Positions 10,486-35,195 of a DNA stretch of 37,138 bases are shown here, piece by piece. Within the stretch, counting starts at the first letter, position 1. The number at the start of each line of letters is the position of its first letter. The stretch spans positions 1-37,138 of the forward strand of contig JACRGV010000034.1 of NCBI GenBank assembly GCA_016212215.1. Reading direction: 5' to 3'. The stretch comes from Nitrospirota bacterium. Lineage in GTDB: Bacteria; Nitrospirota; 9FT-COMBO-42-15; HDB-SIOI813. Below the pieces are notes generated by a model. The model ran no database searches, was not told the DNA's origin, and was given only the letters and a program-made list of their open reading frames with translations. Position numbers and translations under genes: made by a program.

Positions 10486-10572
10486 GTCTTACTTCTTACC
10501 GTCTTACTTCTTACCGTCTTACTTCTTACCTCTTACTTCTTGCCTCTTACTTCTTGCCTCTTGCCTCTTACC
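10486..10572. repeat. 7-mer array between the TPR gene and the kinase
   Basis: The array is a run of ACTTCTT, ACCGTCTT, ACCTCTT, GCCTCTT type units. It includes a thrice-repeated 15-bp higher-order unit (GTCTTACTTCTTACC) at its left. The array directly abuts the end of the TPR gene. Confidence 0.8.
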
Positions 10573-16592: not shown

Positions 16593-16607
16593 CAAATGCT
16601 CCTTCCC

Positions 16608-19262
16608 TTAAAAATCGCTGGTAAAAGCCCTGTCTATCCGCACAGGGATTGACAGATCTTCAATATCAGTACCAGCGTTACGGAATATCAGGCGATAAGG
16701 CATTCCAACCGGGAGTGCCATGTTCTTTAATGTCAGGACAACCTCTTTCTTACGGTCAACCATATCCTGAGACGTGCTGTCGAACTTGAGTGTCTGTATA
16801 TCGCTTACCGGCTCATTACCCGCATAAATCCCGATCTTATACGTGACTGCCTTGATCCTCTCAGACACGGCATCGGTTTGAATAATCTCAAACCTATGCC
16901 TTCCTGTCGTAATACGATGGTCCTGCCCCAGAACCTGCACGCCAACAGTCCTTTCCCGCGTCTTTTCCTTTTCATCGCCCCGTACCTGCTCGACCGTAAT
17001 AACAGGGATCACTACCTCCTGCAGGCTCATGCCTCCATGAAAGTACCGCGCCCCCCCTGTAAAATAAAATAGGCTTATCCCTTTAGGTATAATGAATTGC
17101 ATATCCCCTTCAGATGAAATACCGGCTGTACAAGAGACATTCCCACGATGCACATCCTCATTTCCGGAGATCTTTCTTCCGGTTATAAAACGCTTGTTTG
17201 TTTTGAAAAAGTCGCCGTTAAAGTCCGCTCCCGACTTCTGTCCCATTCCGCGGCCTTTGCTGCGACTCGTCTCGTCCGGAAATTTATCCCTGTAAATAAA
17301 CCCGTGGTCCGCAGTAATAAAGACAAATCTCGCATTCAACTGATTCATCACAAAAGAGACTATGTCACAAACCTCACCTATAGCCTGGTGAACTGCAGAA
17401 AATGTTTTATTCTCAGTCATGGCGTCATCACCCAGGGCGTCAATCGTATTGTGATATACATAAACAATATTTTTCCCCCGCACAAGTTCCCGTGCATCCT
17501 CCCGGCTCATACGAAGTAAATCGTCGCACTTTATCGCAAACCCCTTCTTCGCAGATAATATTTCGCTTCTCTGCTCGATGCCGGCACATGATTTACCATC
17601 AACAAACACATCACCCCTGTCTGAAATTAGTAAACGAGTATGCGGCAGAAGGGCCGCCATACCGAGTGCTGTGTATGATGGGACACATCCAAGCATTGAC
17701 TCTATCTTAGCCTTAAAACGATATCGTCCATTAAGGGCTTCGCTGACCTCAACACCTGCCTCATAACGCATAGCGTCACTGACGATTACAAAAACTGCCG
17801 CACTTTTATCACCGGCTTTACTCCCGGGATATTTCCTAAAGAAGTCATACTGATTGGTAACACCTTCAATATACCAATTATCGAGCCTGGCCTTCTCTTC
17901 CCATAGAATCGCCAAAGTCTCAAGAAACCAGTTTTGATACAAGTCTTCCATCTCATCCTTGAGGTCTTTGAGCACTGCCCAGCCTTTGGAGTCTGCAATG
18001 CCGGCATGTTCGGAAAAATGACGATATTGCCGGTCAAAGACATACAAATCCCTCGTATATGCCTCAAAAACATCTTTTGTATTGGCATAAGAGAACCCAT
18101 GGGGAAAGCTGTTCTTTCTGTCTATAAAAATTGTAGCGGCTATCATCGCTTCATAGACCGACCAAAACGCCGCTCTTGGTACAACTTCATGGCCCAGCCG
18201 CCGGTTTGCCCAATGCTTCTCCTGACGTTCACGGCAAAAGGAAATGAGAAAATCTTTGTCTAAGGTATCCCGATGCTCACGGACGTAAGCCTTGACCCTG
18301 CCTGCACATAGTTTCTCCACTACAAAGAATGTAACCGCTCCTCTAAGCGTCTCAAGAACCTTATCATCCGGAATCTCCTTCAAATATCGCTCAATACCTA
18401 AAGCCTCAGCCACCATCTCAGAAAGACAATCATACGATGCTGCCATCTTTATGCTGTCACGCCACTCGCTCATGCATACCGCAGCATCACGACAAAAGTT
18501 TCCGGGTAAGACAAACTGCCGAACATTCTCCGGCAGGGCCGGACCAATATCGTTATGAAGATCACTCACAAGAAGGCACGTCAGAAAATGTCCCGGATTA
18601 GGCTTTTCCGCATGATAGCCAAAGGCCTCCCGCGCAAATTCCCAGAACATATCTTCAAGCTCCATCTTCTGTATATCAACAAACCTTGCCGGTATGGAGT
18701 CCATCCCCTCTTCAAATGGAAAGGAGGTGAATAAAGAGTGAACGATGTCAAAGAAGCGGTCACTGTCTGCCTTCACCAGCACTGCCAACATCTTCCGGTC
18801 AATATCTTCCGATCTATCCCCCGGCGCAATAATCTTTTTTAGCTGAGCCATCCTTTGCTTGTTGGCAAAGAATTTCTTTCGTTTGGCGATGTGATCCCGC
18901 AAAGAATGGTTCCTTAATCCAAGCTCCTCAACAATCATGGATGCTGTATCAGCGAAAAACTGATAGCTGTATAACCGCACATCAAGAAGCCAATCATCCT
19001 CAGGCCTGGGGATTGCGTCTGGAGAATAAACAAGAAACTTGTCGCCAGGCCTCTCAAGCTCTATAACCACCTTGGTCTTTAATTGCCCGATCTTTTCAGG
19101 ACGCAGGATATTGATGCCGGTATTGCCATCTGGGCCATCCGGGCCGTCAAGTCCCAAAGAGGGTAACATATCCTCGAACTCTCTCTCGGAATCATTCCAA
19201 AAGACGATGCGGTAGCGGGTAAAAAGCTCGTCCAATCTATTCCGTATCTTCTCTTTGTCCAT
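16608..19262 (-). CDS. pglZ: BREX type 1 alkaline-phosphatase-superfamily protein PglZ
   Basis: An 884-residue protein. The C-terminal half carries the PglZ domain with metal-site motifs of the alkaline phosphatase superfamily: FVIVSDAMRYEAG, the nucleophile region VPSYTALGMAALLPH, and FITADHGFIY. The N-terminal part (DELFTRYRIVFWNDSEREFED) is the usual BREX-1 PglZ opening. PglZ is required for both host methylation and phage exclusion in type 1 BREX. Its length is typical. The cluster position, between an accessory AlbA_2 gene and brxL, keeps the canonical pglX-pglZ-brxL order apart from the inserted pair. Confidence 0.95.
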   Translation of the reverse strand: MDKEKIRNRLDELFTRYRIVFWNDSEREFEDMLPSLGLDGPDGPDGNTGINILRPEKIGQLKTKVVIELERPGDKFLVYSPDAIPRPEDDWLLDVRLYSYQFFADTASMIVEELGLRNHSLRDHIAKRKKFFANKQRMAQLKKIIAPGDRSEDIDRKMLAVLVKADSDRFFDIVHSLFTSFPFEEGMDSIPARFVDIQKMELEDMFWEFAREAFGYHAEKPNPGHFLTCLLVSDLHNDIGPALPENVRQFVLPGNFCRDAAVCMSEWRDSIKMAASYDCLSEMVAEALGIERYLKEIPDDKVLETLRGAVTFFVVEKLCAGRVKAYVREHRDTLDKDFLISFCRERQEKHWANRRLGHEVVPRAAFWSVYEAMIAATIFIDRKNSFPHGFSYANTKDVFEAYTRDLYVFDRQYRHFSEHAGIADSKGWAVLKDLKDEMEDLYQNWFLETLAILWEEKARLDNWYIEGVTNQYDFFRKYPGSKAGDKSAAVFVIVSDAMRYEAGVEVSEALNGRYRFKAKIESMLGCVPSYTALGMAALLPHTRLLISDRGDVFVDGKSCAGIEQRSEILSAKKGFAIKCDDLLRMSREDARELVRGKNIVYVYHNTIDALGDDAMTENKTFSAVHQAIGEVCDIVSFVMNQLNARFVFITADHGFIYRDKFPDETSRSKGRGMGQKSGADFNGDFFKTNKRFITGRKISGNEDVHRGNVSCTAGISSEGDMQFIIPKGISLFYFTGGARYFHGGMSLQEVVIPVITVEQVRGDEKEKTRERTVGVQVLGQDHRITTGRHRFEIIQTDAVSERIKAVTYKIGIYAGNEPVSDIQTLKFDSTSQDMVDRKKEVVLTLKNMALPVGMPYRLIFRNAGTDIEDLSIPVRIDRAFTSDF

Positions 19263-19293
19263 ACTTTCTTTCTTATATCCCTATCCTTATCAA

Positions 19294-20445
19294 CTAAATA
19301 AAACGTTTTATCGTTACCTTGAACTGATTTCCACTGTGATCATCTTCGAAATCAATTTCAGGATATGCCTTTAATGCGCGTCTTATCCCTGTTCCTAATC
19401 CCCGATAAGGGAGGATCTTTGTAGCGTAAGAAGACAATATAGGATTACGGATATTAGAATTACCACTTTTAATGTTTTCAATTGTCAAATTATTAGGCAA
19501 ATGCCCCGGGCTGATTATTTCTATACGATCCCGAAAAATAAAAATGCGCACAGGAGCAGATACAAAATAATCACGATGAATAAGTGAATTGGCAATTAAC
19601 TCTTCAAGAGCTACCCGTGGGATTTCCGGTTCTCCAGGACTATTGATGCTTCTGTCTCTTTGCACATGCTTAAGGTTACCTATAACAAACCCTAAACTTT
19701 TTTGAAAAACATCTGCCAATTTCCCGGTAATGTCCTGACTGTCTATATATTCAGATTCATCTATAGAGTTTCCGGGATAACATACCGCTTTAACGATAAA
19801 AACCGGCAGTCTCATTTGTGGATTCTTTGCAAAAAGTAAAGCCCCGCTTATGTTTAAGACACCATCTTTTATTAGATTCATATTTTCAAGTATCTTTGGC
19901 AAAGAGATATCCTGAGCATCCAGTTTTTCTCCATATTCACGCTGAAAAAAACCACTAAAATAAGAAAGATCAACATCAGCAACAGTCATACCAGTAGTTG
20001 GAATTTCATCTCCATGAATTAAACCTGCACTTTGAAACATGCGCTGAATCTCTGCACGTGATGTTACTTTACGTTTATCTGCCCCACTCTTAACCACAAC
20101 CGCCCCTTGATTATCCAAATATGGCTTGCTAATCCCGTCAGAGATATTAACAACCATAACCAGCCCATCCGGCAAGATAACATTTTCCGTCTGTGGATTA
20201 ATTGGGGGGTGAACATGTTGCGACGCTGCATTTGAAACTAATTGATTTAATCTTTGCATGTCTTCAACTGTAAGCCCTGACCTGGCGCCATTATCCCCTA
20301 CACCTATGAACAGCCAGCCTCCACCGGAATTACTGAAAGCAACCATCTCTTCTGCAAGGGCAATAACATTGGTAACATTGCCTTTGAATTGGTGCTTCCC
20401 ATCTTCGCCACGGGAAATTATTTCGAGGAGTTCTGAAGTTTCCAT
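19294..20445 (-). CDS. AlbA_2-domain putative DNA-binding/ATP-binding regulator, BREX accessory
   Basis: 383 residues. The N-terminal AlbA_2 (Schlafen-like) domain shows GKHQFKGNVTNVIALAEEMVAFSNSGGGWLFIGVGDNG. The C-terminal part has ALEELIANSLIHRDYF, RIFIFRDRIEIISPGHLP and RGLGTGIRRAL, the GHKL-like ATP-binding region common in this family of predicted regulators. It starts inside the TrlF-like gene (28-nt overlap), so the two are translationally coupled. Families of this kind occur in many defence loci, and whether it is a regulator or an effector is not known from sequence. It is distinct from the 500-residue AlbA_2 protein at 27332-28834. Confidence 0.8.
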   Translation of the reverse strand: METSELLEIISRGEDGKHQFKGNVTNVIALAEEMVAFSNSGGGWLFIGVGDNGARSGLTVEDMQRLNQLVSNAASQHVHPPINPQTENVILPDGLVMVVNISDGISKPYLDNQGAVVVKSGADKRKVTSRAEIQRMFQSAGLIHGDEIPTTGMTVADVDLSYFSGFFQREYGEKLDAQDISLPKILENMNLIKDGVLNISGALLFAKNPQMRLPVFIVKAVCYPGNSIDESEYIDSQDITGKLADVFQKSLGFVIGNLKHVQRDRSINSPGEPEIPRVALEELIANSLIHRDYFVSAPVRIFIFRDRIEIISPGHLPNNLTIENIKSGNSNIRNPILSSYATKILPYRGLGTGIRRALKAYPEIDFEDDHSGNQFKVTIKRFI

Positions 20446-23063
20446 ATTTGATAAATCTCCTTCCTTCTATTAAACGCTTCTTTACCACCTTCCATAATAT
20501 CTACTATTTTCTGTTGTGTCTCAGAACAATCAATATTTCCATAGGAAATTGACATATGGTCATCTGCATAATTGCACGCAAAAATCCTTTCAGAGTCACC
20601 TAAGACCGGAATATTTGCATTATGTGTTGCAAATATGAATTGTGTATTTCTTTTAAGTCCTCTTATCAATTTGATGACATCTTCATAAATAGTCTGGTTA
20701 TCAAGATCATCTTCCGGCTGATCAATCAAAATCAGGTCATTTTCACGCTGGCTAAGAACAAAAAGGATTAAGGCAGAAGCCCTCTGACCGAGTGAATGAT
20801 GCTTTAACTCTTTATCTCTGTATTTAATTGTGAAACGGTTTGGTACTTGCCATGTTAAGAGAGGCGTCATATTTTCTTTAAAATATTCTTCAAATGTATG
20901 CGCAGAATTTCCGCAAATATTTTTTGCCTTTTCAAAGTCTTTGAACATCGCTCCAAAGTCCGAAAAACCTGCGGTAATACTGGTAAATGTGTTTTCTCTG
21001 ATCTTACTCCCTCTGAATAAATTCTTCATATACTCAACAAATGCCTTTTTGTCTTCTTTAAAACCAACAAATATTTGAAGCGAGGAATGATTTTCATTAA
21101 CCTTTTGCAGCTCATTCTGAATAGCAACAAACTCGTCATGCCATAAATCGTTTAACTTTGTTAATTCCAAGAGCAGTTCTCCATGTATGCCCATTTGTTG
21201 TGATTGTTGTTTTTCAAGCGCTTTAAGCATTTGCCCTGCCTGATCAACTGTTTTTTTCAATTGCAGGAATTCATCCGGACGTATAGCTTGAGCGCCCCTC
21301 TCTGTGAGCTCTTCAGAAAGCCTTCGCTCAATCTCTGCAAACTCTTCCTTAAGCCCCTTTTTCTCTTTATCAAAATCTTTCTCTTTTATAGTCAATTCGT
21401 TGAAACCTAACCTGCCGGCATCCAATGCCTTCTTTAAAAGGCCAAAAGAATCAGTTATTTTTTTATATATCTCAAAAAAATTAACAAAAAAAGATTCATT
21501 CCTTTTAGACTTATAAAGAAGATGATTTGCTAAATCATCTTCATGACGACCAATCAATTGTTCCAGATCGTCCAAATATTCCTTAGCTGAGGACAATACC
21601 TGAACACATTTGCGACTATCCACATCAAAATCAATCTGTTTCTGAAGTTTCTCTTCAACACCATGTTGTTTATATAAATTCAATTTAAACTCGGCATCTC
21701 TTTTCTTTGAATCGTATTCTTTTTTACTTTCCTCGACATTGGTGAGTTTTTTCAAACGTATCACGGTGTCCGCTACTTTCTGACGTTGCATTTCAATACG
21801 ATTACGAATTGCCGTTAGATTTTCTCCAACCAATTTCTCTACAAGGTCTTTTTCAAAACCCTCGCCAGAGCTGGAAAGGTCTTTTTGTCCAAAATAGATT
21901 GGTTTATAAAGAATAGTTTCCCGGATTGATACACCTGGTTGAAGTATTCCGCCAACATAGACATCCGGCTGTTCATTCAGAATGCGTCTGATCTCGTACT
22001 CTTGCCCTCGTCTGTCTATAGCCTGCAAGACAATCTTCCCACCACTGCCGAGTGTATGTTCAACCAATCTGCTCTTATAATTACTATCCACCACCTTATC
22101 TCCAAAAGGGATGTCTAAGGCATATCTTAACGCCTCCAGAATAGATGATTTCCCACTCCCACGAATCCCAATTAAGGAATTCAACTCAGGCGAGAAGTCT
22201 ATTTCATGCCCATCCAGCACACCTCCCGCAAAAGTAATGCTCTTGATATGTGAGTGTTTATACTGTACAGCTTCTGGTGCTACTCTATTCTCAAAATCAA
22301 TTAAAGCATATTTAATTGCTGAGAAAACATAATCTCCTAATTTAAGAAAGGTCTTTTTACCCCTGCCGACTTCATCTATAGATTTACAATCAGACCCTTC
22401 GATTTCTGCAGGATACCAATTTATCAACCAGTTTTGCACCTTTATCCTGCATACACGATCATGGACATCGTGCGTCATCACTTTTTGAAAACCAAGAGTT
22501 TTTTTCTTAAACTGTTCATCTTTCGCTAATTCCTGTATACGCCCGCCCGAAAGGCTTCCCCATAGACCATTCTCCGTTTCAACATGAGCAAACAACAAAA
22601 AATAATCCCGTCCAAACTTATCTAATTCTCTTATCGTTTCAAGCAAATAATGATTTGATCTTGCATTTTCATTTTCATAATTTGACCGCCCTGCAAACGT
22701 CACTCTTAGAAAGTCGTTAATATAATCTTTGTTCTCAGTATTACTAATCCAATCATCATTGAAGATAACTATTGTGTGCACACCGCTTTTCCCATCCTTC
22801 ACGGATAATTCAATGCCAGGTAACAGAAAAATATCCTCTTTTAGTGCATTTTTGCGTAATGCCTTAAATTCTCCTGAATCGAATTTATTGTGATTAGTTA
22901 TCGCTCCGACCCGGATATCTGCTTTTTTTAAGGCTTCAATATACGACTTAACAAAATCCTTTTCATCATCCTGATAAGAAAACTCACTGTCCTTGCAGGT
23001 ATGCAAATGAAAATCTGCACGCACCCAGGCAGAACCATGCTTAAATATGCTGTAATTACTCAT
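20418..23063 (-). CDS. PHP-domain/SMC-like ATPase, TrlF-like, BREX accessory
   Basis: 881 residues. The N-terminal PHP phosphoesterase domain has DFHLHT (17-22), TNHN (56-59), GIEL (83-86) and His96. A long coiled-coil ABC/SMC-type ATPase follows, with Walker A GIRGSGKS (about 299-306), coiled coils at about 405-640, signature HSLGQRA, Walker B LILIDQPEDDLD and ATHN. In the last PHP motif, where relatives usually have SDAH, this protein has SDCK (224-227), and TDH is TNH, so the metal site may be altered. I chose ATG 23063 over GTG 23075 because GGAGG lies between them at proper spacing. The architecture matches nucleic-acid-directed defence ATPases. The role in BREX is inferred. Confidence 0.82.
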   Translation of the reverse strand: MSNYSIFKHGSAWVRADFHLHTCKDSEFSYQDDEKDFVKSYIEALKKADIRVGAITNHNKFDSGEFKALRKNALKEDIFLLPGIELSVKDGKSGVHTIVIFNDDWISNTENKDYINDFLRVTFAGRSNYENENARSNHYLLETIRELDKFGRDYFLLFAHVETENGLWGSLSGGRIQELAKDEQFKKKTLGFQKVMTHDVHDRVCRIKVQNWLINWYPAEIEGSDCKSIDEVGRGKKTFLKLGDYVFSAIKYALIDFENRVAPEAVQYKHSHIKSITFAGGVLDGHEIDFSPELNSLIGIRGSGKSSILEALRYALDIPFGDKVVDSNYKSRLVEHTLGSGGKIVLQAIDRRGQEYEIRRILNEQPDVYVGGILQPGVSIRETILYKPIYFGQKDLSSSGEGFEKDLVEKLVGENLTAIRNRIEMQRQKVADTVIRLKKLTNVEESKKEYDSKKRDAEFKLNLYKQHGVEEKLQKQIDFDVDSRKCVQVLSSAKEYLDDLEQLIGRHEDDLANHLLYKSKRNESFFVNFFEIYKKITDSFGLLKKALDAGRLGFNELTIKEKDFDKEKKGLKEEFAEIERRLSEELTERGAQAIRPDEFLQLKKTVDQAGQMLKALEKQQSQQMGIHGELLLELTKLNDLWHDEFVAIQNELQKVNENHSSLQIFVGFKEDKKAFVEYMKNLFRGSKIRENTFTSITAGFSDFGAMFKDFEKAKNICGNSAHTFEEYFKENMTPLLTWQVPNRFTIKYRDKELKHHSLGQRASALILFVLSQRENDLILIDQPEDDLDNQTIYEDVIKLIRGLKRNTQFIFATHNANIPVLGDSERIFACNYADDHMSISYGNIDCSETQQKIVDIMEGGKEAFNRRKEIYQIWKLQNSSK

Positions 23064-23125
23064 GGTATCCTCCACAATTTATAGTAATATTTGTTTGTAA
23101 ACCAATATAATTACTTTCGTCTGAT

Positions 23126-26100
23126 TTATTCTGTATCTTCTCTTTGTTCATCGTTATCTTTCCCGATAATCTTTTTTACATCTGCCAGAAGGCCGCCAAA
23201 TTTTGCGTAATTGACCTTAACTCCATCATCGAGGTCAAGCATAATCTTTTTGTCTGCATAGTGGCGCAGAAGCTCATCAAACTTCAAGAGCTCGGCCTGC
23301 TGTCTTCGCAATGCAATTATCTCCCGTTGTATCTTATTCGCCGCACTCCCTGACACTGCATCTCTATCTTTTTCAAGATGCTCTATCTGCCGAGCTATCC
23401 TGGTCTGAAGCGGCAGTACGTACTCGGTGCGCATACGTGACAGCGTGCCTTCATTATAGCGGTGCAGATAGACTATCGCCTGAAATGCCTTTTCCTTGCC
23501 GCTTGAGAAGAGCCAGTAGATCGGTCTGTTCTTATAGGTCTGGCAATGATCTTTAAAGAAAGCATCGGCAAAATACCGGCGGATGACCTCACGGCCCGAC
23601 TCTCCGGATTTCCTGCCTATGGCATCAGCGATAAAATCCAGATTGGCATCCAGCCCCTTCTTATCCCACGCGGTCTCAATAAATCGGGAAAACCGGCACC
23701 CGGCGTCATCGTCAAACCATTCCCGCTCAGTAATGGGAATAATACCGTCTTCGTCAGGAACGTAAGTCAAGTGGCGAGTGACGAGTGGCGAGTGGTTAGT
23801 GGTTAGTGGCGAGTGGCAAGTTTGCTGATTAATGAATTGATCATCTTGTTTACTTCCTCCTGAAGAGCAAGAACTTCCTCTACAGTCTGCTGAGACAGGT
23901 AGGTCAAACGTTGAGCAAGAAGTATCTGAGTCTCCACTTCTGCCAGAGAACCCCTGGATATGGATAGGAAGTTCTTGAACTCCGCTGTTGATTGTCTTGC
24001 CTGCCCTTCCGCTATATTCGATGGAACCGAGACCGCAGCCCTTCGTATCTGATTCGTCAGCCCGTACTGTTCCTCTTTCGGAAATTGTTTTGTTGCCTGA
24101 TATACAAGTTCGACTAAGTCCATCGCCTTCTGCCAAACGATCATATCCTTGTAACTCTTTATCATCCGTATCTCCTCCTCCTTCACTCGTCACTGCATTA
24201 AAGTGGCGAGTGGTTAGTGGCGAGTGGTTAGTGACTAGTGACGAGTGGTTAGTATTTTTGGGCTGTTCCCTCGTCCATCGCCCCTCGCCACTCGCCCCTC
24301 GCCACTCGCCCCTCGCCCCTCGCCCCTCGCCACTCGCCACTCGCCACTCGCCCCTCGCCACTATCCTATCAAAGTCCTTATTCCCTGCATGGGCATACAC
24401 AAGGCCAGGCATATCCAGAGAATACCGGCCCATCATACAGCCGACGGCATAACTGATTAATTCCTTCATAGTATCTTCAAGCATTCGGCGTTCAAGCTCT
24501 GTTTCTTTTTGCTCGTCACTCGCCACTAACCACTCGCCACTTAACCTATAGCGGTAGTGCGGGTTAGCAAAAAGCGTAATCTCCTCGATAGGAACATCCG
24601 GTGTAAGCTCGTCCTGCAGACCGTATGCCTCGATGAAGATACGGTTGTTTTCTTCTTCGAGTTGCTTCATTTGATCGGTCATTTGGCGACAGTAATCTCT
24701 ATATCTTTCATATGATCGCGCAATATCTGTGATCCTATTTTCCTTTCGCAGGAGAGGATATTTCTCAAAGTCCCAAGAGGTTTCATATGAGTCCCAGTCC
24801 TTTCTTGAGACAGACAGGCAGTTTGCAACAGTTTGATTAATTTCACTTAGCCTTGAATCTATACTTTCTAACAAAGGTAAACATCGAACTTCTCCAACGT
24901 TCATATTGAGTGTCGGGTTAATCACCTTAAGTAACTTCGCAACATATTTGGTATTCAGGAATCCCAGGCATTTGGGAATATTGATTTCATCATTAAAAAA
25001 CAGTGATGGTGCAGCAAGGTTGAATATCTGATTAGGCTCAAGCGTTCTAAAAGACACCTCACCACTTGTGATTAACGTCCATGATATGCCTTTCTTCCCC
25101 CATAAATACTCAGGCAGTATCCTTGCAACGTGGTCTTTTCGATAATGTTTACGAGCCTCCTCAGACCAGTCGATGACCCAATCTACATTCCCATACCACT
25201 TCCGATAAGTACCTCCTTTGGGGTGTTGCCACCATTTTTCCTTAACTCCAACTTTATTTGATTCGACTTCCCAATGCTGCCGTAGAAATTTATCGTTATC
25301 ACCCGTCTTGGTTTGTCCGTCTGATATAGTTTGATCATGGATGAGTTCCTTAGCATTTACAAAAGGGCTAACAAATCGCTCACTCACCCAATACGCGATG
25401 GGTGAGCCGGGGATCTTTTTGAAGTCGTCCTGGATAGTCCGATTAAACAGGTTGCTCTTATTGATAATGCCTTGCCTCTTTTCCTCCTCGTCCCCATCAA
25501 TCAGCCGTAAGAAAGACGGTCTGTATTTTTTCAAATGGCAATTTAAAGAACTAAATGACGTAACAGTAACCACTTCGCCGGAGATCGTGCTGAATGCCCG
25601 TGCGCCCAAGTGTGCCATGCTCTGAATTGTTTTAGTCTCCAGCCAAAATTCACGACATTTTTCAAACGACGACAGAAACATCCAGCTCTGCATCGTCACC
25701 ATCGCATTATGACCAATACCATCCTTAGCCATTTCAAATCCCCGCTCGATGAACATTGCGAACAGGTCTGATTTGGTGTCGGGATATTGACTCCTGGCAA
25801 ACTCTTTAAGAGTAGCGTTCATGCCCTTCCCGCCCATATATGGCGGATTTGCAATTACACAGTCATAGCGCCTTGACAATAAGTCTGCCTGCTTTAATAA
25901 GTCAGTAACAATCTCTGCCTCTTTCTGCTCAAACATGTTGCCGGATTTCATCCGGTCAGCTATCTCCCCGATCTCCGGTAGTTTCCTTCTTAAATCCGAC
26001 GGCACCCTGATGAGCGAACCATAAGTCATGGCGTTTTCAAACAGCGTTATCAATTCTTTTGCCTCTTTGAAGTGCGCAACCTCGCCATTACTGCTTTTCA

Positions 26101-27256
26101 GACATACAATGCTGGGTCTGACGTCTTTCCTGAATATCTCCCTGTCATCCGCCCTTGCCTTCATCATCACGGCAAACCCGGAAAGCTGGGCAGCACGCTC
26201 GTCAATCTCAAGACCAAAAAGGTTCCTGGTCAGGATAAGCGCCGGGATGTCTTTTTCGCGGTATCCACGCTCAAGATAAATCAGTTTCAGGAGATCATAC
26301 GCCTCAACCAGGATATGGCCTGAGCCGCTGGCCGGGTCTATAACCGTCAACTCCTCAGGATTAAGCGCTGTCGGCGTGATTTCTTTGAGCCTGGCCTTTA
26401 CATCTTCATCCTGCAGGGCCGGCTCGATGTAATATTTCATCATGGATTTTATACCTGAAGCAGGATATGTAGAGAGCCATTTGGCGCCAAGAGAATTCTG
26501 TACCATATATTTAACAATCCAGTTCGGCGTAAAGAGCTGGGTGACCGCCGGGATGTCCTCAGTCCTATACGCCTTCTTTGCCTTCATAAGCGAGTCTTTT
26601 TTCTCAGAGATATAGAACTGATACAACCACCCGATGATCTCGACCTCTTTCCAGTCATCTTCCGGAATCTCGCTCACCATGTGCCGGATAACAGAATCAG
26701 TGTTGAGGAGATTGTCCGGCAGAAGAAGCTCAGTCGGGTCATCAAGCCGCTCAAAGAGAAACGGCATTGCCGCATTTAAGTCATTGCACTGGGCTATAAG
26801 AAGCCTGCGATATAATTCGTTCTCCTTACCGGCCGCCATTTTGAGCCTGATGATCTCCCCTCTCTCAAGACCGTCCAGCCGCTCAATAAATTGCGCCTTC
26901 TCAAGAATCTCCGGCTCAGCATGGCCTTCCGGATGACTTAGCACGCGATAGCCATGGGAGAGATAGCCGTTCACCTCCATAAAACGGATAGCAGCGATAC
27001 GATTAAACCATGTATAGGCAACCTCTTCAATGACCTGAGGGAATGAGGACTTATCAATCTGATCAAGAAGTGCCGTGCGCGCGGTCACAACCCCTTTTGG
27101 AAATGCCCGTCCTGTAATAAAAGCAAAATCTCCCTGGACAGTACAGGGCTCGGCCTTTTCCTTAGAGATGCCATAAAAGTGCACCCGCTCAGTAACCGCC
27201 TTTATGAACTCTAACCGCGCCGCAGGGGCATAAGTTTTAAGCCTGCCTTTATTCAT
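23126..27256 (-). CDS. pglX: BREX type 1 adenine-specific DNA methyltransferase PglX, carrying a large in-frame insert
   Basis: 1376 residues. The N6-adenine methyltransferase motifs are DPASGSGH (about 307-314, SAM binding) and NPPY (about 470-473, catalysis). PglX marks host DNA and defines the BREX recognition site. Residues about 964-1163 are a Gly/Ser/Thr-rich, low-complexity block with no family counterpart, encoded by a 7-mer-flanked insert at about 23768-24366. A shorter 7-mer patch encodes LSGEWLVASDEQ at about 905-916. Removing both leaves roughly 1165-1170 residues, close to the usual BREX-1 PglX. Flanking family sequence (GNKDFDRI before, YVPDEDGIIPITEREWF after) joins cleanly and in frame, so the gene is intact on paper. 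Confidence 0.95.
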   Translation of the reverse strand: MNKGRLKTYAPAARLEFIKAVTERVHFYGISKEKAEPCTVQGDFAFITGRAFPKGVVTARTALLDQIDKSSFPQVIEEVAYTWFNRIAAIRFMEVNGYLSHGYRVLSHPEGHAEPEILEKAQFIERLDGLERGEIIRLKMAAGKENELYRRLLIAQCNDLNAAMPFLFERLDDPTELLLPDNLLNTDSVIRHMVSEIPEDDWKEVEIIGWLYQFYISEKKDSLMKAKKAYRTEDIPAVTQLFTPNWIVKYMVQNSLGAKWLSTYPASGIKSMMKYYIEPALQDEDVKARLKEITPTALNPEELTVIDPASGSGHILVEAYDLLKLIYLERGYREKDIPALILTRNLFGLEIDERAAQLSGFAVMMKARADDREIFRKDVRPSIVCLKSSNGEVAHFKEAKELITLFENAMTYGSLIRVPSDLRRKLPEIGEIADRMKSGNMFEQKEAEIVTDLLKQADLLSRRYDCVIANPPYMGGKGMNATLKEFARSQYPDTKSDLFAMFIERGFEMAKDGIGHNAMVTMQSWMFLSSFEKCREFWLETKTIQSMAHLGARAFSTISGEVVTVTSFSSLNCHLKKYRPSFLRLIDGDEEEKRQGIINKSNLFNRTIQDDFKKIPGSPIAYWVSERFVSPFVNAKELIHDQTISDGQTKTGDNDKFLRQHWEVESNKVGVKEKWWQHPKGGTYRKWYGNVDWVIDWSEEARKHYRKDHVARILPEYLWGKKGISWTLITSGEVSFRTLEPNQIFNLAAPSLFFNDEINIPKCLGFLNTKYVAKLLKVINPTLNMNVGEVRCLPLLESIDSRLSEINQTVANCLSVSRKDWDSYETSWDFEKYPLLRKENRITDIARSYERYRDYCRQMTDQMKQLEEENNRIFIEAYGLQDELTPDVPIEEITLFANPHYRYRLSGEWLVASDEQKETELERRMLEDTMKELISYAVGCMMGRYSLDMPGLVYAHAGNKDFDRIVARGEWRVASGEGRGARGEWRGASGEGRWTREQPKNTNHSSLVTNHSPLTTRHFNAVTSEGGGDTDDKELQGYDRLAEGDGLSRTCISGNKTISERGTVRADESDTKGCGLGSIEYSGRAGKTINSGVQELPIHIQGFSGRSGDSDTSCSTFDLPVSADCRGSSCSSGGSKQDDQFINQQTCHSPLTTNHSPLVTRHLTYVPDEDGIIPITEREWFDDDAGCRFSRFIETAWDKKGLDANLDFIADAIGRKSGESGREVIRRYFADAFFKDHCQTYKNRPIYWLFSSGKEKAFQAIVYLHRYNEGTLSRMRTEYVLPLQTRIARQIEHLEKDRDAVSGSAANKIQREIIALRRQQAELLKFDELLRHYADKKIMLDLDDGVKVNYAKFGGLLADVKKIIGKDNDEQREDTE
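23768..24366 (-). mobile_element. 7-mer-bounded insert inside pglX carrying a four-helix-bundle gene
   Basis: The left border at 23768-23822 consists of GTGGCGA-type 7-mers (GTGGCGA, GTGACGA, GTGGTTA). The right side has the same 7-mers (about 24199-24254), then about 24272-24366 the inverse 7-mers (CACTCGC, CCCTCGC). The outer ends are thus inverted repeats of each other, and the right half can fold as a long hairpin. Between them lies one complete small gene. The insert interrupts PglX at a loop between conserved blocks and keeps its frame open. No transposase or reverse transcriptase is present. Confidence 0.75.
23803..24165 (-). CDS. Four-helix-bundle protein of the 23S rRNA intervening-sequence (IVP) family, nested in pglX
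   Basis: 120 residues from ATG 24165. Hallmarks of the family (TIGR02436-like) are [15 protein letters not shown] at the start, [27 protein letters not shown] in the middle, and [19 protein letters not shown]. The structure of relatives is a compact four-helix bundle, similar to the accessory protein Avd of diversity-generating retroelements. Function is unknown. The ribosome site GGAGGAGGAG, about 8 nt upstream, decides the ATG over an in-frame GTG at 24186. The reading frame is +1 relative to pglX on the same strand, and its last codons (LATRH) and TAA stop are made of the flanking 7-mers. It would be co-transcribed with BREX genes. Confidence 0.88.
   Translation of the reverse strand: [120 protein letters not shown]
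24508..24543. repeat. Short 7-mer patch within pglX
   Basis: About five 7-mers of the CACTCGC/CACTAAC type lie here, 140 nt from the larger insert. They encode LSGEWLVASDEQ in the pglX frame, replacing a short loop between NPHYRYR and ETELERR. They match the repeat type that bounds the large insert. Confidence 0.75.
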
Positions 27257-27259
27257 CTA

Positions 27260-27310
27260 ATAATAACCCCATCCCCACCCTATCCCTCCCCTTGAAGGGG
27301 AGGGTATCTG
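27260..27310. repeat. P1 palindrome between the AlbA_2 gene and pglX
   Basis: The hairpin CTCCCCTTGAAGGGGAG (about 27286-27302) is preceded by the CCCCATCCCCACCCTA arm. It lies in the 75-nt gap upstream of the pglX start, so it would be in the polycistronic message and forms most of the pglX leader. Confidence 0.75.
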
Positions 27311-27331
27311 GTAGCTGATTCTCACCCTTTC

Positions 27332-28834
27332 CTATCTTCGGATAACAAGCCAATGTCCACCTTTATCAGGGCCGACTCTTTTTAGAAGACCCATATCTTT
27401 TAATTTTGCAATATTATCCTGTATGTTACGAGAGGATATCCCAATTACGTCAGCCAATGCTTTTGCAGAGATAGCAGGATCTTTAACAATAGCTTCTACA
27501 ATTTTTCTCTGATTTGGAGTCAATCTTTCTACGACCTTTTCTACGACCTTTTCTACGACCTTCTCTACGACCTTCTCTACGACCCCTGCTTTCGCCCCAG
27601 GATGATTTCTAATCATTACCATAAAATACTCGCGGTCATCATCCGTTTCAAAAACAGGCGCCGGGGATCCATTCCTTTTTAAAGCCCGGCGAATCTTTGG
27701 AAATCCTGTACCACGGCCCTCAGTTAAATGAAGTTCTTTCAGGAAATCACCCAGACGGCTGTTACGATAACGATGAAAGGTAACGATTGGCTTATTTATA
27801 TTGTCTTTGCCAAGCGGAGGTAACGGACCCGGATAATTAAGTACCATCACACGGTCGGGATATACCCGCACTTCAACCGGCTCGCGTTCTTCATAACTGC
27901 GGTGATACACAGCGTTGACTAAAACTTCTTCCAGTGCCTCATACGGATAATTATAAAATCTGTCTGCTTCCGCCCGACCTGGTATCTTACGGACAAATTC
28001 CTTGATCACTGCATTCTTCAAATATCCAAGCGCAGAACGAACCTGCTGATGTACCGGACCGGTAAAAATCTTTTCCGAAAAAACATCGCCTACATCATCT
28101 TCAAACTCAACAATATCAATTCGCGCACGAGGAAAGAATTTCTCCGGATCATCACTGAAAAGCAACAGACCGATATTCTTAGGCTTTAAATATTCCGCCG
28201 GCCCCTGAGCTATATTCATCCGTAAACACAGGTCAGCAAACGGCAGCTTTGATACCTCGGCAGAAAGGGAGCTGCGGATTTCCGCCAGATATGACTGGAT
28301 CAGGATAATATTAAGATCATTCAAATCAGCGTTATGGTTAATGCGGTCATCAAATGGAATATTATTAGCAAGCTTTATTAAACCACGCTCTTCTGCCGTT
28401 GTCGGCAATTTGGTAACGGCATTACGACGGATGTAATATGCGTATTCAGCTCCTTTAGCCAAACTCACTGCAGCCTTATATGGGCGGCCATTTCCACCTG
28501 GAACCCAAACTATTAGGATGTCCCGCCTTTCAAAGTTCGTCACCTCAACTACAGGAAAATATTCTGGTCTCATCTTGTGAGATAGTCCCAAAATCTCTTT
28601 CTGAACCTTCACAATCTCTGACCGGGACAGTCCTTTAGGAGGAAAGACCGGAACGTTATCTTTCTCAGCCACGCCGATCACGATATAGCCGCCGCCCCAA
28701 TTATTGATATCATTGGCAAAGGCGCACATCGTATGCAAGACCGCTTCAGGATTCCATCCTTCCTTAAACTCAAGGCGTTCAGACTCCACTACACGACCAT
28801 GAAGTAATTCATAGATATTAATTGGTAATGCCAT
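27332..28834 (-). CDS. AlbA_2-domain protein with C-terminal winged helix, BREX accessory
   Basis: 500 residues. The N-terminal AlbA_2 domain is ESERLEFKEGWNPEAVLHTMCAFANDINNWGGGYIVIGV. The middle GHKL-like ATP-binding part shows ALEEVLVNAVYHRSYEEREPVEVRVYPDRVMVLNYPGPLP and EGRGTGFPKIRRAL. A VVEK tandem repeat (about 417-437) is followed by a DNA-binding winged helix (LTPNQRKIVEAIVKDPAISAKALADVIGISSRNIQDNIAKLKDMGLLKR). The start is ATG with AGGAG 7 nt upstream. It sits between brxC and pglX, where canonical BREX-1 has no gene. It may serve as the regulator of this locus, since no BrxR-type protein is evident. Confidence 0.83.
   Translation of the reverse strand: MALPINIYELLHGRVVESERLEFKEGWNPEAVLHTMCAFANDINNWGGGYIVIGVAEKDNVPVFPPKGLSRSEIVKVQKEILGLSHKMRPEYFPVVEVTNFERRDILIVWVPGGNGRPYKAAVSLAKGAEYAYYIRRNAVTKLPTTAEERGLIKLANNIPFDDRINHNADLNDLNIILIQSYLAEIRSSLSAEVSKLPFADLCLRMNIAQGPAEYLKPKNIGLLLFSDDPEKFFPRARIDIVEFEDDVGDVFSEKIFTGPVHQQVRSALGYLKNAVIKEFVRKIPGRAEADRFYNYPYEALEEVLVNAVYHRSYEEREPVEVRVYPDRVMVLNYPGPLPPLGKDNINKPIVTFHRYRNSRLGDFLKELHLTEGRGTGFPKIRRALKRNGSPAPVFETDDDREYFMVMIRNHPGAKAGVVEKVVEKVVEKVVEKVVERLTPNQRKIVEAIVKDPAISAKALADVIGISSRNIQDNIAKLKDMGLLKRVGPDKGGHWLVIRR
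27528..27592. repeat. 12-bp coding tandem repeat in the AlbA_2 gene
   Basis: Five near-identical 12-bp units (TCTACGACCTTT-type on the plus strand) encode VVEK-VVEK-VVEK-VVEK-VVER on the minus strand. Unit length is a multiple of three, so copy-number change alters linker length without frameshift. Related EKV-type repeats are common before the winged helix of this family. Confidence 0.85.
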
Positions 28835-28913
28835 AACATACTCCTGATCAATAAAACACTTGAAATCACTGGCTACAATGAATGTATAATGCGTACTACT
28901 TTATTTGATTTTT

Positions 28914-31900
28914 CTATTCAACCCTTATCCGCTTACCGTCTTTAATTGCCTTTTTAAACCTTCCGCTTAAATTATCTATAAACTCATCAACATCTGCATC
29001 AGATTCAAGGTACGGTTTGCTTGCCTCGCTGCGAATATGAACAATCTGCACCTCCCTGACCTGGTGGCCGCCTGCATCATTGGCAACTGTTTTGACCAGG
29101 CTGTTCATTTCTGCCACAAAGATATTCTTCGCCTCATCCGCAAGACGATTGATATTGGCGATACTCTCCTCGCTTTCAAGCCGCTCTCCAACAGAAGTGT
29201 AAGCCCTGCTGGTACGTTCTATGTCTTTGGGTAAAGCCTTAATACCCTCTGCTTCTTTAACGAACCGCTCTGCAAGAGTGGATATTACATTACTTGCTTT
29301 TCCCCTCGCATCAGCAAGTAGCTTGTCGTTGGCTTGATCTACCTTTTGTATCAGCGATGCGGCTTCACGAATGATGCCGTATGGTGCTGGTGCTGCCAGA
29401 ATATCCCGCATCCTTATCAATGCGGTTTTTATATCTTCGCTGTTTTCAAGATCAAAACTGTTTATCTCAAACCTCGCCATGGCATCACGTAATTCATCCC
29501 ATTGCGGGCGCTGTTTGATATAAAAACCATTTATGTCAGCAAATGTATTTGCGGCGGTTATAAGTCCATCACGGTTCTCTAATATACGCCCTATGAACTC
29601 AAAGCTGTCTTGACCGTCTAAGAGCAGTTCAACCAATCTCGATATTTCCTGAATATCTTTAAGCCCAGGGTATTTTCCGGTATCTGCAAGGGTCTTATGC
29701 TGGTTTATGGAATCCCGCCAACCTTCCAACTGCTGCCTCAGAAATTGATAAAGCGGCAGCTCCTTGTCAGACCCCATTTGTCCGAATACCTCCTGCCCCA
29801 GTCTGCGTGCCTTTTCAATATGCGCGACGTCAACCACTTTGCGCTGACGAACCGTTACCTTTTTCCAGTTGCTGGTCCGCGTGATCACTTCCGCCACCCG
29901 TCCGCGCTCAAGTATCCCTCCGCTAAAGAGAAACTGTATTTCTCCAAGACAATAGAGTTTAGCAAGTATAAGCGCCGTTTCCCACTCGTTCCATCCATAG
30001 GGACGAGCGGCAAAACGCTCGATGATATCGCCTGCAACCATCTGTTTGCTCTGCAGGACACATAATGAAATATAATCCCGCACCTCTCTTGCAGCCTTCG
30101 GATTATTGTCTGGAATGTTCATATCGAACACTCTTTGAGCGGTGTCATCATGACGCATCACTGACTGGATCTCTCCCTGAGGATTAGCAGACGGGTGTTC
30201 GATGTATCCCATTTTGGAAAAGCTGTTGTCTACAAGGTAATCCAGGGCATTATTGGACGCGATAAACGGGTCTTCTGCGTCTGCCCGCCATTCCCATCCA
30301 TTGATATAATATTCTGCCCGGCCCAAAAGTTCTTTGACGAGTTCTATGATCCTTCCCTTACGCTCCCGATTCTCTGACTTGCGCTCATCAAGGATCCGTT
30401 TTATCTCGGGGTTGCCTTCGTTTTTACGGGCTATATACTTTTCAGTCTTCAGAAATGTCTGTATTTCTTTCCCGAGAAGATCGCTATCCGGTAATTTAAT
30501 GACAATGCAGCCATTATCGTTAGTGCTCTCCCCGATACACCGGTGCGAACCAAAAAGGGAATATTCGTCATAAAATGCAGAGATGACGGAAATAGTCAGG
30601 CCGCGCTCAACACGTCCGCCGCAGACCTGTAAATCACACATCCTCAGGAGATCAAAATCTTTCCCGGTCTTTACGTAACGGTGTTTTTTGTCACCCCGAT
30701 AGATATCTTCAAAGATTATTTTACTCAATGTGCGGCTTTCATCGCCAAAGCCCAATTCCACATTCTTGATCTCGCGGCTGACATCCTGTTCTTCATTGGT
30801 AAGAAAATAATAATTCTCTCCACTTCTGGCGATGAGTGTTTCCTTCTCAAGCCTTAAAAGGGACTCTTCGATCTTTTTGCGGAGGATAAGACGATCTTCA
30901 TCAATGCCTTCTATGCATAAAGTAACGAGATTATCTACGTTACCTTTAACCTCCTGAATATAGCGGATCATAAACAGCGCCTTAAGTATGGAAATATCAT
31001 ACTCATGGAGCGACTTATTAAAACCGGCCTGATCAATCGTGCGCTTAACAGCGGTATCAAGGAAACTCTCAATAGAAGGATAGAACCAATAAATCGGGAC
31101 GAGGATACCTGCGTCTTTTGAAGCGGCCTGCTGTGCCGCGAACTGGAATGCATCCAGCATGGAGCGCTCTCCCCGGGAAAGGTGAAGCCCTGTCGCTCCG
31201 GCGCGGCGGATCGTCTCAAATACTTTTTGAATCAGCTTGAATTGATAGGGGACAAACGGGTAATTGCTCACGAATTCATCGGGATTGTTATAGGACGGAA
31301 GGGTCATGCCGGTATCCGATGTGAAGGTAAGCTGGTTTTTTAAGATATCGGCATTGGGTGTATATAGTTTCTTCAGTCCGGCTACGCAGTCGTCCTTCTT
31401 TTCCAGAAGCCGCCGCTGAATGACTTCGTCTGTATTTGAGCTTGATAAGGAGATACGCGTTTTGAACCTGCCCTGTATTTTTGAAAAGTCATTTGTGCGT
31501 GCATTACTAAGAGATCCCAGAACAGTGTCAATATCTTCCTGAGAGGTAACGACCACCCATGCCCTGCCTGCACAGACAACCCCCAGATTCTCAACTATCG
31601 TCTGAAGGCTTAGCATCAAATGCCCGTCACTGCCTATAAACTGCCCGATCTCATCTACAAAGAAGAATAACCTGTGCGATGGGCCTTTGGCATCAAGATA
31701 CTCCTTTACCCACCTGGCAAAATTCTCTACGGTCAGAGAAAAATCTGTCTCAGCATGGTCTATCCACCGGTGACACGACTCTTCGCTTTGTCCAAGCACT
31801 CTCGTGAGAGACTTTACGATCTCGTCCTGATTAAAGTGCCAGTCAACCCTTCGGTCTTCCCATTCTTCGTTAGTAAGTGCCGCATATTCCCGTTTGAAAT

Positions 31901-32459
31901 CCCCGAGCTGTTTCTTTTTATCGAGATAACGTTCCATGTGTGCGATATGCGGATGATCAGGGCTGTAGCCCTGAAGCTCATTTAATACTTTTAAGAAGAC
32001 TGACAGGATGGCTTCCCGGCCACGGGATTGATCTGCCTTGCTGTCAATATTGAACAGGATAGCGTCAATATCTTTACCGGCAACCCGCTTAACCGTTCCG
32101 GACAGCATGGCATCACTTATCTTTTCTTCAAAAAACTGCAATGCGGTTTTCTTTTTGCCGCCCATTTCAACAGACGTATTCGCAAATAAGTAATAAAGCG
32201 CTTTGATAAAATGCGACTTTCCAGAGCCAAAGAAACCGGACACCCAAACGCCTACCTTGCCAGCGGCGTCAGAGCTTATGGGATCGTCAACCGTATCAGC
32301 GTATACGGAGAAGAATCTGTCAAGATGGCCGGTTAACTCCTTCGTCAGCACAAGTTCGTCAAGCTCCTGATATATGGATGCCTCGTCTTTTTGCTCTGCC
32401 TTGATGACGCCGTTAATTGCGCGAAAGATGTCTTTTTTGAAAATTTCTTTGATTTTCAC
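28914..32459 (-). CDS. brxC: BREX P-loop ATPase BrxC
   Basis: An 1181-residue protein of the expected size for type 1 BrxC. Walker A GFFGSGKS lies at about 75-82 (VWVSGFFGSGKSHFIKALYYLF) and Walker B LFFFVDE at about 264-270 (LFFFVDEIGQFIG). The N terminus KEIFKKDIFRAINGVIKA is typical. BrxC is essential for BREX methylation and exclusion, and is thought to power assembly of the complex on DNA. The start is GTG at 32459. Its only ribosome-like stretch is the G-run of a nearby palindromic repeat about 10 nt upstream, so the exact start is somewhat uncertain. Confidence 0.95.
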   Translation of the reverse strand: MKIKEIFKKDIFRAINGVIKAEQKDEASIYQELDELVLTKELTGHLDRFFSVYADTVDDPISSDAAGKVGVWVSGFFGSGKSHFIKALYYLFANTSVEMGGKKKTALQFFEEKISDAMLSGTVKRVAGKDIDAILFNIDSKADQSRGREAILSVFLKVLNELQGYSPDHPHIAHMERYLDKKKQLGDFKREYAALTNEEWEDRRVDWHFNQDEIVKSLTRVLGQSEESCHRWIDHAETDFSLTVENFARWVKEYLDAKGPSHRLFFFVDEIGQFIGSDGHLMLSLQTIVENLGVVCAGRAWVVVTSQEDIDTVLGSLSNARTNDFSKIQGRFKTRISLSSSNTDEVIQRRLLEKKDDCVAGLKKLYTPNADILKNQLTFTSDTGMTLPSYNNPDEFVSNYPFVPYQFKLIQKVFETIRRAGATGLHLSRGERSMLDAFQFAAQQAASKDAGILVPIYWFYPSIESFLDTAVKRTIDQAGFNKSLHEYDISILKALFMIRYIQEVKGNVDNLVTLCIEGIDEDRLILRKKIEESLLRLEKETLIARSGENYYFLTNEEQDVSREIKNVELGFGDESRTLSKIIFEDIYRGDKKHRYVKTGKDFDLLRMCDLQVCGGRVERGLTISVISAFYDEYSLFGSHRCIGESTNDNGCIVIKLPDSDLLGKEIQTFLKTEKYIARKNEGNPEIKRILDERKSENRERKGRIIELVKELLGRAEYYINGWEWRADAEDPFIASNNALDYLVDNSFSKMGYIEHPSANPQGEIQSVMRHDDTAQRVFDMNIPDNNPKAAREVRDYISLCVLQSKQMVAGDIIERFAARPYGWNEWETALILAKLYCLGEIQFLFSGGILERGRVAEVITRTSNWKKVTVRQRKVVDVAHIEKARRLGQEVFGQMGSDKELPLYQFLRQQLEGWRDSINQHKTLADTGKYPGLKDIQEISRLVELLLDGQDSFEFIGRILENRDGLITAANTFADINGFYIKQRPQWDELRDAMARFEINSFDLENSEDIKTALIRMRDILAAPAPYGIIREAASLIQKVDQANDKLLADARGKASNVISTLAERFVKEAEGIKALPKDIERTSRAYTSVGERLESEESIANINRLADEAKNIFVAEMNSLVKTVANDAGGHQVREVQIVHIRSEASKPYLESDADVDEFIDNLSGRFKKAIKDGKRIRVE

Positions 32460-32461
32460 CT

Positions 32462-32561
32462 GAAAATAACCCCCCCATGCCCCCCCTTATACAAAGGGGG
32501 GGATTTTCATTCCACTTAGTGAGCCCATGGATCATGAATGTTTCATATTGACTCCATTTTT
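32462..32561. repeat. brxB-brxC spacer with degenerate palindrome
   Basis: CCCCCCCTTATACAAAGGGGGGG (about 32480-32502) forms a hairpin resembling P1. It is followed by a degenerate P2 edge unit (TTTTCATTCC...GATCATGAATG, about 32505-32542). The other BREX core genes abut closely, so this gap is a repeat insertion. Confidence 0.6.
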
Positions 32562-33131
32562 TTAAGGCACTAATCTAAAGGCCCTGTAGTAATTGTCCTC
32601 CGCCAGCAGGTCAAATAACCGAAATGACTGGCCGCTGTATTTCCCGGGATAAAACAGTACCACCGATGCATTGCCCGTAACGTTTTGAAGATTATTCAAA
32701 AGTGAATGCGCCCTGACCCAGGGCCAGATAGTACCGGTACCGCTGATAAATACAAGGTCACACTGCGCAAGATTATATTTCTCTGCAATGATGTTAACAA
32801 ACCGCTCCGGCTTAACAGCCGCAGACAATGCCTTCCACAATGCCGCCGACCCTTTCCCGCATTCCATGTCGTACGCCTTTTCTATATTCCCCCGCTCCGT
32901 CAGGTGCTCGATCATCAGATGGAACAATCTGACATGTCTAAATTTAATACCGGGATGATGTTTTTTAATCCGTTCTTCCATAAACAAAATATGCCCGCGC
33001 ATTTTTAATTCATCTTCCGGAAGATAATCAAAAACATAAAAAGGGATTTCACCGCTTAGTTTGTTTCTCTTCAGGAATCCATCGCTTGTTACTTCCGGTA
33101 AAATTGCATCTAATCTTTCCTGAAATGTCAT
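32562..33131 (-). CDS. brxB: BREX protein BrxB (DUF1788)
   Basis: 189 residues from the chosen ATG (MTFQERLDAILPEV). Recognisable DUF1788 features include EIPFYVFDYLPEDELKMR and LVFISGTGTIWPWVRAHSLLNNLQ, ending FYPGKYSGQSFRLFDLLAEDNYYRAFRLV. BrxB is a small core factor of type 1 BREX, required for defence, with no known catalytic motif. I chose ATG 33131 because AGGTGAG lies a few nt upstream and it overlaps the brxA stop as ATGA. A start at 33149 lies inside brxA without its own site. Confidence 0.92.
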   Translation of the reverse strand: MTFQERLDAILPEVTSDGFLKRNKLSGEIPFYVFDYLPEDELKMRGHILFMEERIKKHHPGIKFRHVRLFHLMIEHLTERGNIEKAYDMECGKGSAALWKALSAAVKPERFVNIIAEKYNLAQCDLVFISGTGTIWPWVRAHSLLNNLQNVTGNASVVLFYPGKYSGQSFRLFDLLAEDNYYRAFRLVP

Positions 33132-33724
33132 TTGCTCACCTGTATACATCTACAAACATACTCTTCATTATTCTTTATCAAATAGTCTATTACCTCAGGC
33201 ACGATTTCTACTCGCTTCAATCGCCAATCATGAGCGCTATGTAAATAGCCTGCTTCCACAAGAATTTTATGCACGACACTGCGCATCTTTTCCGCGGTTG
33301 ACGGCGGGAAATCCTCCATAAATGGGTCTCTTTGCTTGCATAAAACAATGAACTCGTCCCACAACGCCGGGGAAAGCCTGTCTTCCATCTTCCTGAATTG
33401 CTCACGAACAACAATATCCAAATAATCCCCTAAAATCCGGCAATGCTTAATCGCTGCCGCGAATACGGCCTGAGTTGCGAGTACAGCATCCCCGTCCCGA
33501 ACCATCTTCCAGAGTTCCGGAGTCATCAGCCCCAACCGAGCCCTTATGAATGACGCGACCCTTTTTGACGATGAGACGCTCAGCTTCTGCAGGATGTTCT
33601 TATTCTCAACAGCATCCTTCCATTCCTCGACTGAAACCTCCCTGATCATCAAATCTGCAATCTTTCTGCTTTCAGACACCAATAAGGCGCCTGCTGTTAT
33701 ATTGGCTTTATAAATTCCTTCCAT
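33128..33724 (-). CDS. brxA: BREX protein BrxA (DUF1819)
   Basis: 198 residues and first gene of the BREX operon. It shows the DUF1819 layout: ITAGALLVSESRKIADLM near the start, then a helical body with SSSKRVASFIRARLGLMTPELWKMVRDGD and WDEFIVLCKQRDPF. It resembles NusB/TrmB-like helical DNA-binding folds described for BrxA. AAGGAT lies before the ATG, and a sigma-70-type promoter is about 20 nt further up. The stop is shared with brxB as ATGA. Confidence 0.93.
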   Translation of the reverse strand: MEGIYKANITAGALLVSESRKIADLMIREVSVEEWKDAVENKNILQKLSVSSSKRVASFIRARLGLMTPELWKMVRDGDAVLATQAVFAAAIKHCRILGDYLDIVVREQFRKMEDRLSPALWDEFIVLCKQRDPFMEDFPPSTAEKMRSVVHKILVEAGYLHSAHDWRLKRVEIVPEVIDYLIKNNEEYVCRCIQVSK

Positions 33725-34000: not shown

Positions 34001-34034
34001 GAAGCAAGAGGTTAGAGGTTAGAGATAAGAGGTT
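34001..34034. repeat. 7-mer array supplying the ribosome site of the Fis-like gene
   Basis: Units AGAAGCA, AGAGGTT, AGAGGTT, AGAGATA, AGAGGTT run directly into the ATG at 34035. The AGAGG cores of the repeat provide the only purine-rich ribosome-binding stretch, so the repeat may set translation of this gene. Confidence 0.7.
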
Positions 34035-35075: not shown

Positions 35076-35195
35076 CCATAGCTCACCCTCCCCCTATCCC
35101 CCCTCCCGTCAAGGGAGGGGGGATAAACTTTGTACTTTTCTAAAGGAGGAATTCTCATTTCTTACTTCTTGCTTCTTACTTCTACCTTCCGCCTA
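35076..35195. repeat. ilvD downstream spacer: P1 palindrome and 7-mer array
   Basis: A P1-type hairpin (CCCCTCCCGTCAAGGGAGGGG, about 35100-35121) is preceded by TCCATAGCTCACCCTCCCC. The same lead sequence occurs at 6486 and 37012. A 7-mer stretch (TCTTACT, TCTTGCT, TCTTACT and similar) lies at about 35156-35195 and abuts the ilvD stop. Confidence 0.75.

Follow-up and report, generated by a model that had tools for sequence, protein, structure and literature searches.

Within a 37,138-nucleotide contig of a Nitrospirota bacterium (JACRGV010000034.1, positions 1 to 37,138; hereafter the window), pglX, the adenine methyltransferase gene of a BREX-1 (bacteriophage exclusion) locus, carries a guest: a complete gene of the IVP (S23, Avd-like) four-helix-bundle family, enclosed by arrays of 7-bp tandem repeats, across which the pglX frame stays open in a register of its own. 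The guest is probably a small mobile IVP element that settled in a loop of its host gene, with resident copies of its kind being tolerated as an in-frame, translated and disordered loop. Established by sequence are the architecture of the element, its empty site, the phase and openness of the host frame at recurrent sites, the codon signatures of two frames, and the existence of dispersed copies with exact ends. Both proteins are presumably made, and PglX presumably still works.

Architecture of the element in pglX

The pglX product matches the BREX-1 PglX model (NF033452) at 1365.5 bits (cut-off 500), placing it among BREX-1 PglX proteins, and the match is interrupted at residues 962|1164, the interruption being the insert. 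The features of the gene and its insert are:

23126..27256, minus strand: pglX (BREX-1 adenine methyltransferase), 1376 codons in a single open frame, insert included (NF033452)
23768..24362, minus strand: inserted element, 595 bp from array to array, edges good to a few bases (empty in the PglX relatives L139 and L140)
24268..24362, minus strand: terminal array on the upstream side, about 13 units of AGTGGCG type in gene sense (Tandem Repeats Finder, TRF); its partner in the RNA fold is the downstream array
24202..24248, minus strand: second upstream array of opposite sense, CCACT type, about 7 units (TRF)
23803..24186, minus strand: IVP/S23 four-helix-bundle gene (PF05635, TIGR02436), its stop lying within the downstream array; solved relative 2gsc
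23770..23821, minus strand: terminal array on the downstream side, about 7 units of CCACT type in gene sense (TRF); part of the RNA-fold stem
24517-24546, minus strand: short solo heptamer array inside pglX, a second in-frame insertion (SGEWLVASDE) missing from the same-family relative

A preliminary description of the window had claimed a complete IVP gene with its own ribosome site in frame inside pglX, and this holds: the protein matches PF05635 at 146.9 bits (cut-off 33.8) over all 106 positions and TIGR02436 at 139.8 bits (cut-off 24), as expected of a full-length IVP/S23 member, and GGAGGAGGAG stands about 7 nt ahead of the likely ATG start at 24165 (an alternative GTG lies at 24186). 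In gene sense, the AGTGGCG-type array is followed by a CCACT-type array, the IVP gene and the second CCACT-type array, and in the predicted RNA fold the ends of the insert pair into a stem (z = -7.25). As the flanking arrays are inverted, the element reads as a hairpin with terminal inverted repeats.

Alignment with PglX relatives, proposed earlier as the way to define the insert, did so. The PglX of a member of the same family (L139; 1181 residues, 73.9% identical outside the insert) lacks it and has a short linker at the site (GNNEFD-ANKYETFPA-DEDGIIP, versus GNKDFD-[insert]-PDEDGIIP in the window); a second, more distant PglX (L140) is likewise empty, and the alignment with E. coli BrxX (8zek) is unbroken over the insert, at residue 992. 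In an AlphaFold model (11-sequence alignment), the insert has predicted local distance difference test (pLDDT) values of 22-30, versus mostly 75-93 in the C-terminal region beyond it, and is thus best viewed as a disordered loop. None of the findings that could have undermined the preliminary description materialized. An assembly join at the repeats is excluded because the arrangement recurs in many independent genomes, the IVP frame is not degraded in all relatives, and the solo arrays of L033 (an IVP-less footprint at the same site as the window insert), L012 and L016 look more like IVP-less derivatives of the element than like an older low-complexity block, its arrival presumably having preceded the loss of the IVP gene.

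The suggestion that such elements form a general class bordered by 7-mer arrays was borne out in 80 loci, the nearest IVP relatives in sequenced species of many phyla, picked by similarity to the pglX-resident IVP protein. A period-7 array lies within 400 bp of the IVP gene in 71/80 and on both sides in 48/80; arrays make up 21% of the nearest 150 bp and less than 1% past 1 kb, with no other period prominent. Upstream and downstream units are reverse-complementary to each other within a locus (0.74) more than between loci (0.604, standard deviation 0.012), a value matched in 0 of 5000 permutations. Arrays were expected to be shorter in embedded copies than in the others and were not (medians 68 and 72 bp, P = 0.42). 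At one locus (L121, genome G022), the IVP gene is flanked by inverted arrays of 8 bp (AGGTGAAG / CTTCACCA) instead of 7 bp. Two other loci, on cyanobacterial plasmids (L169, L172), have the IVP gene between cas6 and cas4; IVP genes in cas loci have been recorded before (PMC3936711).

Phase and openness of the host frame

The pglX frame corresponds to IVP frame +2. Between 23768 and 24366 it contains no stop, compared with 5, 16, 12, 3 and 11 in the other five frames, in agreement with the earlier statement that pglX runs open through about 199 codons of the same DNA. A run of 199 open codons has P = 5e-5 by base composition alone, and an open host frame over the IVP core, with the IVP protein and codon usage held, has P = 0.003; these values, along with the depletion of stops in embedded copies (below), rule out an open frame arising by chance.

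Searching with the window's BREX proteins (tblastn) for IVP genes that have pglX or PglX-like sequence to either side, a selection independent of phase, yielded 18 loci including the window, from hosts that include Lentisphaerota, Omnitrophota, Verrucomicrobiota, Chlorobiota, Fibrobacterota, Chloroflexota, Bacillota, Pseudomonadota and one cyanobacterium. At all 18 the host gene continues in phase across the IVP gene, with no stop on the way. (The alternative host frame, +1, is rich in stops and is used by no verified case; the one locus that seemed to use it, L018, is a mislabelled frame at the edge of a contig.) Three insertion positions occur: that of the window and two loops that closely precede and follow methyltransferase motif I, the loop after the motif being the site in distant PglX-like proteins of about 25% identity. 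One PglX open reading frame of 1522 residues (L228, genome G246) accommodates an IVP element at each of two sites and several solo arrays besides, none of which breaks the frame, and in-frame solo heptamer arrays are common in these genes. A profile of the host-frame peptide brought up more copies free of stops: in type III Mod-like methyltransferases, in another DNA methyltransferase (L227) and in the DNA repair gene mfd, where an element with 8-bp arrays (L184) lies in frame; hosts are therefore not limited to defence genes.

When 299 genomes were sampled from the phylum to which L020 belongs, the strong matches included a single copy with a long stop-free frame, that of the starting genome itself. 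Most copies are therefore not embedded, and IVP genes do not inherently have an open second frame. Five non-embedded copies (L024, L028, L045, L054, L073) are also stop-free in frame +2; several of them are close kin of embedded copies, and our guess is that these left a gene recently.

The codons themselves bear the mark of both frames, in line with the earlier proposal that selection keeps the host frame open. A stop in IVP frame +2 requires an IVP codon ending in T before AA, AG or GA. Third-base T creating a host stop was found in 0/602 instances in embedded copies versus 416/2462 in non-embedded ones, and T ends 20.6% of the other codons of embedded genes; across 21 embedded copies, 76.8 stops are expected with IVP protein and codon usage fixed and none is seen, although these counts of stops and codons are not independent, some BREX loci sharing descent. 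Codon positions 1 and 2 of the IVP gene are conserved and position 3 is close to saturation, whereas host-frame identity at 60% IVP identity is only 0.285 in embedded versus 0.249 in non-embedded copies. IVP is therefore selected as a protein, and the host frame for openness. On the IVP tree, embedded copies are scattered among non-embedded ones, with at least 13 changes on the best tree and 4 forced by well-supported branches.

These observations bear on three other explanations. Were the insert removed from the mRNA, by intron-like splicing or by RNase III excision as in the intervening sequences (IVS) of 23S rRNA, the host frame would be irrelevant. The terminal arrays do fold into a long stem, and the IVS of Coxiella, with heptamers before its S23 gene, is excised by RNase III (PMC4990558). 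However, an Rfam scan returned sub-threshold, low-complexity matches only, with no intron family at threshold or even at E <= 1, which also speaks against a self-splicing intron, and an excised stretch need not be stop-free, yet the in-phase, stop-free frame is conserved in every pglX case. We regard removal from the mRNA as very improbable. Slightly less remote, though still improbable, is that the arrays form a contingency switch in which PglX is toggled whenever an array grows or shrinks by one unit (7 = 1 mod 3). The arrays are within coding sequence, their unit is no multiple of three, and one host (L183) is out of phase, but all 18 pglX cases are in the ON phase, stops are purged even from the IVP core, which a simple switch would not need, and arrays flank intergenic IVP genes too.

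The remaining explanation makes the IVP gene a domesticated part of BREX, an overlapping gene that regulates PglX or the system, with both products serving the host. IVP is conserved as a protein, and about 28 of the 80 nearest relatives lie in or next to BREX genes, some between pglZ and brxL or adjoining pglX and brxC. That share is inflated, however, because the loci were picked for their resemblance to an IVP that resides in pglX; moreover, the same guest occurs in type III Mod, other methyltransferases and Mfd, it is missing from close relatives of PglX, positions differ (three loops and several spacers), and L034 holds its PglX frame open despite a broken IVP gene. Domestication thus seems unlikely to us, if the least unlikely of the three. 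Within purple sulfur bacteria, four loci (L024, L031, L054, L073) have the IVP element between pglZ and brxL, and three of the four are stop-free in frame +2.

Dispersed copies and probable mobility

The genome of the window has nine IVP matches. One type of element is scattered over it in about ten shortened copies, 175-320 bp long, which have identical, heptamer-built inverted ends (GTAACCGTTCACAG...CTGTGAACGGTTAC) and unrelated flanks:

L203-L226, on contigs C106, C37, C52, C128, C149, C64, C86, C53, C81, C43, C9 and C44: shortened IVP elements

Several copies with identical ends in unrelated flanks, as in miniature inverted-repeat transposable elements (MITEs), were seen for these shortened elements and not for the AGTGG-type pglX element itself. 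In three of the five copies that are complete on one contig, 7-8 of 8 bases are duplicated at the edges (CTTAAACC, TAATAAAC and GAAATGTY). If contig ends C37/C128 and C53/C81 are the two sides of one copy each, as appears probable, they add two more duplication pairs. The dispersed shortened copies had no match in nine genomes of the same genus and family, and hence no empty sites were read; similar copies in the complete genome G022 gave ragged similarity blocks with no readable element ends.

The most probable account of the pglX insert is the following. The element is an IVP gene between inverted heptamer arrays, which would serve as its terminal inverted repeats and are predicted to pair in a long stem. 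It would settle in flexible loops of pglX, of related PglX-like proteins and of some other large proteins, and would survive only where the host gene remains in phase and stop-free across it. Ribosomes would read straight through, giving the host protein a disordered loop of about 150-200 residues, and IVP would be made from its own internal start in the other frame. Because 7 = 1 mod 3, a unit gained or lost in either array could bring a fresh insertion into phase, an attractive possible reason for the ability of such elements to settle in genes. Full-length elements presumably move as the shortened copies did, and IVP presumably serves the spread or upkeep of its own element.

Several points weigh against a mobile, tolerated guest. 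The pglX insert has no recognisable target duplication, such duplications being known for the shortened copies only, and the genome of the window yielded neither an autonomous partner, parent transposon or transposase with these ends nor a match to reverse transcriptase (PF00078), which we had entertained as a required partner and dropped. Not all copies are doubly intact, L034 combining a broken IVP gene with an open PglX frame, and in L183, an MmeI-like methyltransferase, the upstream half of the host reads into the IVP frame; that copy therefore breaks or splits its host. Finally, the 18 in-phase loci represent fewer than 18 events, as they partly share ancestry.

Relation to known elements and the surrounding locus

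Rickettsia palindromic elements (RPEs) are mobile-like palindromic DNA found in frame within protein genes and tolerated as an extra peptide; to our knowledge, they carry no gene of their own. The 18 loci resemble them in being palindromic, stop-free, in-phase guests of protein genes, with no sequence kinship implied, and differ in that one frame encodes a conserved protein while another serves the host. Compared with MITEs, the shortened copies have exact inverted ends and, in some cases, duplications of about 8 bp, but the ends are built of heptamers, the full elements bear an IVP gene, and no parent transposon with such ends was seen.

The 23S rRNA IVS of Coxiella burnetii has heptameric repeats before its S23 gene, a 28-bp terminal stem and RNase III excision (PMC4990558). 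The window insert shares with it an IVP-family gene, heptamers ahead of that gene and complementary, stem-forming ends, so this rRNA-resident member looks alike; however, the insert lies not in a 23S rRNA helix but in phase within a protein-coding gene whose frame is open, and excision is not implied. Seven-bp tandem units between and within genes are also known as the TAACTGA repeats of Beggiatoaceae (PMC4679880), to which one IVP dialect of the window's genome (TAACAGT/TTAACTG) is similar, and as the short tandemly repeated repetitive (STRR) sequences of cyanobacteria, but neither body of work ties the repeats to IVP genes or inverted pairs. The Avd protein of diversity-generating retroelements has a homologous four-helix-bundle fold (bAvd PF22296, 42.1 bits, cut-off 40); IVP nevertheless falls below the Avd equivalog cut-off (40.2 versus 80), and with no reverse transcriptase in the genome we do not count it as an Avd.

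Our search of the literature (open PubMed Central, preprints excluded) found no paper that connects IVP genes with inverted heptamers or describes them as in-frame residents of protein genes, and the searched passages of a 2026 BREX survey make no mention of either. Both the IVP elements of 23S rRNA and the palindromic elements that lie in frame in Rickettsia genes are known; a gene-bearing guest with two maintained frames appears to be new. With somewhat less confidence than we place in the account of the pglX insert, we favour the view that mobile DNA includes a widespread, so far unrecognised class, the IVP elements whose inverted ends are built of heptamers, and that its members can be dual-coding guests in protein genes, the 23S rRNA IVS being its rRNA-resident members. 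Such a class would join three things into one testable object: IVP/S23 genes that stand as orphans, bacterial heptamer repeats that lack an explanation, and the low-complexity inserts of DNA methyltransferases. It would present a gene-bearing element residing without splicing in an apparently working gene, and, for long gene overlaps on one strand in bacteria, it offers clean natural examples whose codon signature is explicit.

The locus in which the insert lies is otherwise arranged as follows:

14565..33724, minus strand: BREX-1 locus comprising brxA, brxB, brxC, an extra gene, pglX, two extra genes, pglZ and brxL (PADLOC models)

Of the three extra genes (at 19294-23075 and 27332-28834), one is a PHP-ATPase and the other two are of a single ATP-binding kind; a 12-bp tandem repeat (27526-27584) within the 27332-28834 gene encodes VEKVVEKVVEKV. 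Solo 7-mer arrays also occur in intergenic DNA of the window, at 1348-1413, 7053-7105, 10487-10573, 34007-34035 and 35152-35189, and several of them (TCTTACT type) match the dialect of another IVP element of the same genome (L002, AGAAGTA).
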